The notes under the pieces are model-generated. The model was given only the letters and a program-made list of their open reading frames with translations, was not told the DNA's origin and did no database searches. 34,307 nucleotides of DNA from Nitratifractor sp. Its GTDB lineage: Bacteria > Campylobacterota > Campylobacteria > Campylobacterales > Sulfurovaceae. The position numbers and the translations under genes were made by a program. How positions within the stretch are numbered: the stretch's first letter is position 1; every line of letters begins with the position of its first letter. Positions 31,456 through 32,376 of this stretch are shown piece after piece. Location: contig WGFZ01000065.1 of the NCBI GenBank assembly GCA_015491955.1, positions 1-34,307 of the forward strand. The letters are read 5' to 3'.

Positions 31456-31498
31456 TTGATAAATATCAAGCCAATAACTGCTCCCCTTGCGATACACT
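31456..31498 (+). promoter_or_regulatory. FNR-type class II promoter of the 31528 gene
   Basis: TTGAT-AAAT-ATCAA at 31456-31469 is a perfect FNR/DNR box. A -10-like TACACT lies at 31493-31498. With a start near 31504, the box centre (31462.5) is at -41.5, the classical position for FNR activation. No -35 is needed or seen. Confidence 0.82.
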
Positions 31499-31527: not shown

Positions 31528-31902
31528 ATGTTAAGAGATTTTTTCTATTTAGAGGGAGCATATTTAATCTTAGCGGTTATTATTATACTAATTACAATTT
31601 TTGTAACTACCCGCCCTTTTATGTCTCCATCTGCTCCTAAAAAAGGATTAGTGGCTGTTAGCTTAATTCTTAGTTTTTTTATAGGTATCCATTTTTGGAT
31701 TACAACCTCACGTATAGCCTATGTAAAAAAAGCATTTTATGAGAATAAACCTATTCTTTGTGAAAGTAGAATGTTACGTAAAATGGCTCAATCTATTGAG
31801 ATTCGTAAATCAACATTATCTAATTGGCAAATAAAAGGTGATAATTTTGTATCTCCTGAGTATAATCGACCTTTTCACCTTGCTCGTTGTATTGTTAAAT
31901 AG
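31528..31902 (+). CDS. Unknown membrane protein under FNR-type control
   Basis: 124 residues, ATG 31528 with AAGGAG 6 bases upstream. Two hydrophobic helices (about 10-28 and 40-60), then a soluble basic tail with two Cys (LCESRML and LARCIVK) and KSTLSNWQIKGDNF. No heme or metal motif. It has its own FNR-type promoter, followed 120 bases later by a second one for the norC operon. I do not recognise the family. Placement suggests a role in nitric oxide reduction or nitrosative-stress response; that is inference only. Confidence 0.75.
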   Translation: MLRDFFYLEGAYLILAVIIILITIFVTTRPFMSPSAPKKGLVAVSLILSFFIGIHFWITTSRIAYVKKAFYENKPILCESRMLRKMAQSIEIRKSTLSNWQIKGDNFVSPEYNRPFHLARCIVK

Positions 31903-31936: not shown

Positions 31937-31978
31937 TTGATTACTATCAACTCTATTTGACGAAAAAATTCTTATAAT
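31937..31978 (+). promoter_or_regulatory. FNR-type class II promoter of the nor operon
   Basis: TTGAT-TACT-ATCAA at 31937-31950, a second perfect FNR/DNR box, and TATAAT at 31973-31978. A start at about 31985 puts the box centre (31943.5) at -41.5. Spacing from box to -10 is almost the same as in the promoter 480 bases upstream. Confidence 0.87.
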
Positions 31979-32021
31979 ACCCTGTGCTTGTTGAGGCATA
32001 AAGTCAAAAGGAGTCCATATT

Positions 32022-32366
32022 ATGGGAAATTTTATTGGGTGGCCAGAGATTGCACCAGAGCAGTTTTTACCTATTTTCATTATTTCAACACTAGTTTTAA
32101 TATTTGGAGTAGGATATGCCTCAATCATTACACTGGCAAAAATGGGATTTTTCTCAAAAAGATGGATGACTCTTGGCTACTTGTTTTGGGGCTTACAAAC
32201 ACTTAGTCTATATAAGCTTGCCATACTTATACATAGTAATCACTATACAACAAAAGTATTACTAGTAACTATGATAGCTTATCTCTTCGTACCTCATCTG
32301 TACTTCTACCTAATATCAGAGTCAGATAAGCGTTACGAACAAGACAATGATAATCAAACAAAATAA
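32022..32366 (+). CDS. Small membrane protein, first gene of the nor operon
   Basis: 114 residues, ATG 32022 with GGAG 8 bases upstream. Three hydrophobic helices (about 14-37, 47-66 and 76-97), the last ending in a charged cytoplasmic tail ESDKRYEQDNDNQ. Histidines in LIHSNHY and VPHLYFY lie at helix ends, but no known heme or metal motif is present. It is 10 bases upstream of norC and under the same FNR-type promoter, so it is probably made together with the NO reductase. Not recognised as NorE, NorF, NorD or NorQ. Confidence 0.78.
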   Translation: MGNFIGWPEIAPEQFLPIFIISTLVLIFGVGYASIITLAKMGFFSKRWMTLGYLFWGLQTLSLYKLAILIHSNHYTTKVLLVTMIAYLFVPHLYFYLISESDKRYEQDNDNQTK

Positions 32367-32376
32367 AGGAGGAAGA

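Follow-up and report, generated by a model that had tools for sequence, protein, structure and literature searches.

A NorH-like membrane protein as a probable third subunit of Thermus-type nitric oxide reductase in Campylobacterota

Campylobacterota figure prominently among the denitrifiers of vents and sulfidic water. Their nitric oxide reductase commonly goes by the name NorCB or NorBC. The closest described system is that of Thermus, whose operon includes a further gene, norH; Bricio et al. (2014) reportedly found norH in Thermales and Aquificales and are said to have described co-purification of tagged NorH.

In the Thermus locus the end of norB is overlapped by a 98-aa ORF, after which comes a nitrite reductase gene. 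Two papers identify this ORF as NorH, part of a heterotrimeric reductase (PMC5748679, PMC5015936), and a third describes the norCBH product as heterotrimeric (PMC7694296). A review of respiration in Campylobacterota speaks of NorBC, with no third part mentioned in the sections available (PMC6682613). In a search of the open-licence literature NorH came up in Thermus papers only, or was absent among the 30 of 167 matches listed. A three-part cytochrome c-type reductase (cNOR) has already been published for Thermus, and no report of one in Campylobacterota, nor of biochemistry for this phylum, was found; because only open-licence papers were covered, this is weak evidence of absence.

The nor locus of the window and its promoter

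The stretch of DNA analyzed, referred to here as the window, comprises the 34,307 nucleotides of contig C65 (1–34307), from an assembly of 1.11 Mb that is 73% complete. Its features of interest are collected in Table 1. Read 5' to 3', the window sequence presents a dyad, 22 nt, the hexamer TATAAT, the 114-aa ORF, norC and norB, with norC starting 10 nt past the stop of the 114-aa ORF and the start of norB overlapping the end of norC; this spacing suggests that the genes are cotranscribed. Window NorC is 49% identical to Thermus NorC. No nirS was found in the window's own genome; with an assembly at 73% completeness and a contig that breaks off inside norB, this is not evidence of absence.

Table 1. 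Features of the nor region in the window
Feature	Position	Strand	Basis or remark
Small divergent ORF, 62 aa	30827–31015	-	upstream of nor region
Small divergent ORF, 129 aa	31012–31401	-	upstream of nor region
First FNR-type dyad, TTGATAAATATCAA	31456–31469	.	5' of 124-aa ORF
Conserved ORF of 124 aa with two hydrophobic segments and two conserved Cys	31528–31902	+	relatives; own FNR-type dyad upstream
Second FNR/DNR-type dyad, TTGATTACTATCAA	31937–31950	.	perfect match; TTGAYN4RTCAW form common upstream of relatives
-10 hexamer TATAAT	31973–31978	+	22 nt past dyad end at 31950
Shine-Dalgarno AAGGAG of three-helix gene	32008–32013	+	window sequence
NorH-like three-helix membrane protein, 114 aa, ATG start (proposed third cNOR subunit)	32022–32366	+	homologues, model, profiles
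Shine-Dalgarno AGGAGG of norC	32367–32372	+	window sequence
norC, membrane-anchored cytochrome c subunit, 222 aa	32377–33045	+	PF00034, E 1.1e-6
norB, catalytic subunit, cut by contig end	33035–34307	+	PF00115, E 1.3e-56

A first-pass annotation of this DNA had placed a 114-residue three-helix protein at the head of the operon, 10 bases before norC, and both the coordinates and an AlphaFold2 model bear this out; the model has helices at residues 12–40, 48–70 and 74–112 (mean pLDDT 76, pTM 0.59). The ORF is a real gene, homologues being found in 74/150 genomes of the family and 74/397 of the phylum, the latter by alignment profile and with one doubtful case (G210, E 0.004).

The same annotation had called TTGAT-TACT-ATCAA a second FNR box lying at class II spacing from TATAAT. 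It is indeed the second, the sole other exact TTGATNNNNATCAA in the window being that at 31456–31469, and the 22-nt spacer places the dyad centre 32 bp 5' of the centre of the -10 hexamer, that is, at about -41.5, in class II geometry. A TTGAT-N4-ATCAA dyad so placed relative to a sigma-70 promoter is the arrangement looked for in Crp/Fnr-type control. The two exact dyads in the window compare with 0.12 expected, and none of 100 shuffles reached two; a single copy of the composite TTGAYN4RTCAW-N22-YATAAT is present, at 31937, against none in 60 Markov-1 null windows. There is no TATAAT at 22-nt spacing from the first dyad.

Upstream of the relatives of the 114-aa gene the relaxed dyad TTGAYN4RTCAW was present in 87 of 92 distinct regions, the five in which it was not found being L046, L078, L083, L084 and L115. 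A -10-like hexamer lies at exactly 22 nt from 76 of these 87 dyads, and at any other spacing in seven or fewer. When the best match to the ten fixed dyad positions was scored over 83 distinct loci, 18 had all ten, 41 had nine, 21 had eight and three had seven, scores of eight or less being often attained by shuffles. In each of four loci checked (L047, L087, L088, L099) the operon has Crp/Fnr-family genes close by. The putative regulator of the operon is predicted to belong to this family.

Distribution of the gene and of two kinds of reductase

The NorH-like gene lies immediately 5' of norC, on the same strand, in 110/110 fetched loci holding it (51/51 among the first loci examined), a set in which duplicates are counted, 91 distinct proteins are represented and two Thermus loci are set aside. 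These loci extend across six family-level groups (f1, f6, f7, f8, f9 and f11). Homologues were found at 21 loci in contigs of named genomes, with the titles Campylobacteraceae, Nitratifractor, Sulfurovum, Sulfurovaceae, Hydrogenimonas and Epsilonproteobacteria, and the assignment of the phylum to Campylobacterota is based on these relatives. The gap rule is satisfied by 104 of the 110; the other six have gaps of 0 to -14 because the alignments extend beyond the stop. Downstream of norC is norB and then, in 42/44 loci with room, nirS, the identity of which was established in two loci by the cytochrome d1 domain (PF02239); nirS is absent within 6 kb in L032 and L042.

By identity to the window NorB, the NorB proteins of the phylum fall into sets of 68–100% (74 genomes), 37–41% (15 genomes) and 31–33% with long, qNOR-like frames (11 genomes). 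The NorH-like gene occurs in 73/74 genomes of the first set, in 0/10 of those whose only NorB is the canonical, 37–41% type, and in 0/11 of those with the qNOR-like type. Within the family it accompanies window-type NorB in 70/72 genomes and is present in 4/78 without it (Fisher 4e-35, uncorrected for genome relatedness). In the three genomes having this NorB and no NorH-like gene (G005, G104, G341) norB or norC is at a contig edge, while among those with the gene and no such NorB the contigs of G110 and G145 break off within norC, that of G063 just past the gene. A survey of Campylobacterota cNOR operons, which had been proposed beforehand as a check, thus placed the gene in essentially all operons of the window's NorB type and in none of the canonical norCBDQ(EF) type.

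A few single occurrences should be recorded. Locus L127 (G057 contig 367, 2658–2816) holds only residues 1–53 of the NorH-like gene, inside the contig, and the 4 kb read there showed neither norC nor norB; it would be a broken copy or a misassembly. The G210 match was treated as chance, that genome being without NorB and no nor query having matched the 4 kb fetched (L134). On contig 58 of G101 (L115) a second, diverged copy stands 5' of an additional norB, which is of the window type (68% identical); its NorB groups with f8 genomes in the tree described below, which suggests that the whole unit was transferred.

NorB of the 37–41% set resides in canonical operons, norCBDQ, usually with norEF. 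By tblastn, L104–L111 contain norC, norB and norD in 8/8, norQ in seven and norE-norF in six, with no E/F matches in L105 and no Q/E/F within the 8 kb fetched for L111. The domains identified in L104 are NorQ (PF08406), NorD (VWA), NorE (PF00510) and NorF (PF03626). NorQ (PF08406) was detected in 18/150 genomes of the family, 14 of which have canonical NorB; in the other four (G088, G097, G106, G131) it lies beside canonical norD/norE/norF on contigs which end inside that cluster. One genome with canonical NorB, G141, yielded no NorQ. From this distribution NorQ tracks the canonical nor clusters and the NorH-like gene the other NorB, and no NorQ of their own is seen in genomes with window-type NorB alone, so that this type of NorB occurs without NorQ. 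The first-pass annotation had set the operon, in this phylum, against standard norCB(E/F)QD. As a contrast between the phylum and the standard this does not hold: since standard norCBDQ(EF) operons also occur in Campylobacterota, the phylum has two kinds of cNOR. Eight of the 150 genomes in the family carry both.

Comparison with NorH and with other small Nor proteins

The nearest NorB outside the phylum, in the plasmid collection, is that of Thermus (eight records, 53.5% identity), followed by canonical alphaproteobacterial proteins at 41% or less. In a NorB tree of 39 rows, made up of 27 from Campylobacterota of the window type (the window and 26 of the 51 others of the type), two from Thermus, eight canonical Campylobacterota and two alphaproteobacterial, a branch with 100/100 support unites the window type and Thermus against canonical NorB.

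The 114-aa protein resembles T. thermophilus NorH in being a small membrane protein encoded beside norC-norB, with three hydrophobic segments, read from the 98-aa ORF in NorH and from the model in the window protein. Both have the motifs Y-x(5)-L-x-[KR]-M, Y-x-F-x-x-LQ and YLFVP, in both systems nirS comes after the operon, and the NorB that NorH accompanies is the closest outside relative identified. They differ in length, 98 against 114 aa, and in gene position, which in Thermus is 3' of norB and here 5' of norC. Regulation in Thermus is through DnrS/DnrT/NsrR (PMC5748679), whereas here there is an FNR-type dyad.

Similarity of sequence to NorH is remote. NorH, represented by one distinct sequence (eight plasmid records, all at least 99% identical), scored 16.8 bits in hmmsearch against a profile of the 91 distinct proteins, higher than any of 3000 block shuffles, which reached 16.5 at most, and higher than the 146 other membrane ORFs taken from the loci, which reached 12.8. 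With hhalign the same profile gave E 1.6e-4, score 29.2 and probability 50.9%, against a best score of 21.4 and a best E of 4.7e-3 in 150 shuffles; a narrower, 39-row alignment gave E 0.0066 and a probability of 5.8%, the divergent members having raised the latter to 50.9%. Against NorH, 88 family members outscored the 146 other membrane ORFs (p 1.5e-32, overstated because the family members are related). Direct identity of the window protein to NorH is 16/98 aligned positions. Conserved residues retained in NorH are Y32, K/R40, Y53, L58, Y87, L88 and P91; those invariant or nearly so in Campylobacterota and changed in NorH include F15, F19, W56, Y64, K78 and H92. The protein adjoins norC-norB of the Thermus-type NorB clade, shows this remote similarity and has three helices; homology to NorH is likely, though not proven.

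Pfam and NCBIfam gave nothing credible for the protein and its relatives, the scattered sub-threshold matches being chance; no solved structure in the PDB matched the 114-aa sequence, nor was there a credible PDB match to Thermus NorH. Foldseek and VIA-align on the model returned generic helical bundles only (best Foldseek E 1.4), which is not informative. Four tblastn matches on Paracoccus plasmids at E 0.3–0.6 were likewise dismissed as chance.

Two other accessory proteins of nor operons were considered as identities and rejected. NorF (prokaryotic COX subunit IV, PF03626) is also a small nor-operon membrane protein and occurs in the canonical operons of Campylobacterota (L104). PF03626 matched neither the window protein nor 39 relatives, while NorF of L104, as positive control, matched at 6.7e-11; moreover the window gene is absent from canonical-only genomes (0/10). 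NorE (COX3, PF00510) is likewise an accessory membrane protein, but larger, and PF00510 too was unmatched by the window protein and the 39 relatives, with the L104 NorE control at 4.7e-12.

Possible roles and neighbouring ORFs

That the protein is an extra subunit of nitric oxide reductase is, as a prediction, well supported by its co-occurrence with one NorB type and its remote similarity to NorH. Co-occurrence alone is not proof of a subunit, because within the family the 124-aa ORF shows almost as close an association. The first-pass annotation had offered an extra subunit or assembly factor in this phylum. The extra subunit is supported; a novelty of the phylum it is not, because Thermus, which has the nearest outside NorB found, possesses NorH as a counterpart, encoded last in its operon. 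We consider it probable that the 114-aa protein represents NorH in Campylobacterota, a small third subunit of Thermus-type cNOR, whose gene would have been relocated to first place in the operon (norH-norC-norB, usually then nirS, against norC-norB-norH). A regulator of the Crp/Fnr family bound at about -41.5 would activate the operon, and the three-helix protein, judging from the 5' position of its gene, would be made ahead of NorC and NorB. It presumably inserts with its N-terminus outside and its K/R-rich loop inside, and may pack against NorB/NorC, there stabilizing the complex or aiding assembly or electron input.

Assembly alone would be a different role: the protein may serve cofactor insertion or NorC-NorB docking in the window type and be absent from the mature enzyme, accomplishing by another route the task of NorQ/NorD. 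The lack of an own NorQ in genomes with only window-type NorB and the position of so small a gene at the operon head agree with this, and we retain it at lower weight because this kind of NorB occurs without NorQ; yet the Thermus counterpart is described as a subunit (PMC5748679, PMC7694296, PMC5015936) and Pfam and NCBIfam searches recognized no ATPase domain or metal-binding motif in the protein, so that we regard a pure assembly factor as unlikely. A wider scheme would assign separate helpers to the two kinds of cNOR, the canonical one being matured by NorQ/NorD and the Thermus/Campylobacterota one, free of these, relying on a NorH-type protein (made first in Campylobacterota) which docks NorC to NorB and enables insertion of the non-haem iron; this we put forward tentatively, as a rather unlikely possibility.

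The resemblance to NorH could also be one of architecture, a phylum-specific, non-homologous subunit of NorH-like role having the three helices in common with it. The 16/98 identity, the many conserved residues that differ, a best shuffle close to the NorH bit score and the opposite gene positions would all fit. Against this, the hhalign score exceeds the best of its shuffles by 29.2 to 21.4, the family members beat the other membrane ORFs against NorH, with a p that is overstated, and the two proteins accompany sister NorB types in the tree, which makes non-homology distinctly improbable. Very improbable indeed is a separate membrane protein for NO stress or sensing which merely uses an FNR-type promoter. 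The adjoining 124-aa ORF with its own dyad does hint that the region collects small proteins, but the gene is beside norC in every locus holding it, across six family-level groups, and its second copy in G101 travels with a second norB.

By these data the Campylobacterota enzyme of the window NorB type is probably three-part, with an unannotated subunit in essentially every such operon. That subunit would be a concrete missing component for purification or expression of these reductases, and the operons would offer a natural system for how cNOR gains iron without NorQ/NorD.

The 124-aa ORF has no Pfam family; its C-terminal part reads W-x(4)-D-x-F-x-SP-x-Y-x-R-x-F-x-x-ARC. It is present in 76/150 genomes of the family, including 72/74 of those with the NorH-like gene (sometimes on another contig) and four without it. 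The 62-aa and 129-aa ORFs likewise had no Pfam match. Lookalikes of both occupy a similar place in L031, L035, L037, L042 and others, and the two possibly belong to a conserved group of membrane proteins linked to denitrification.
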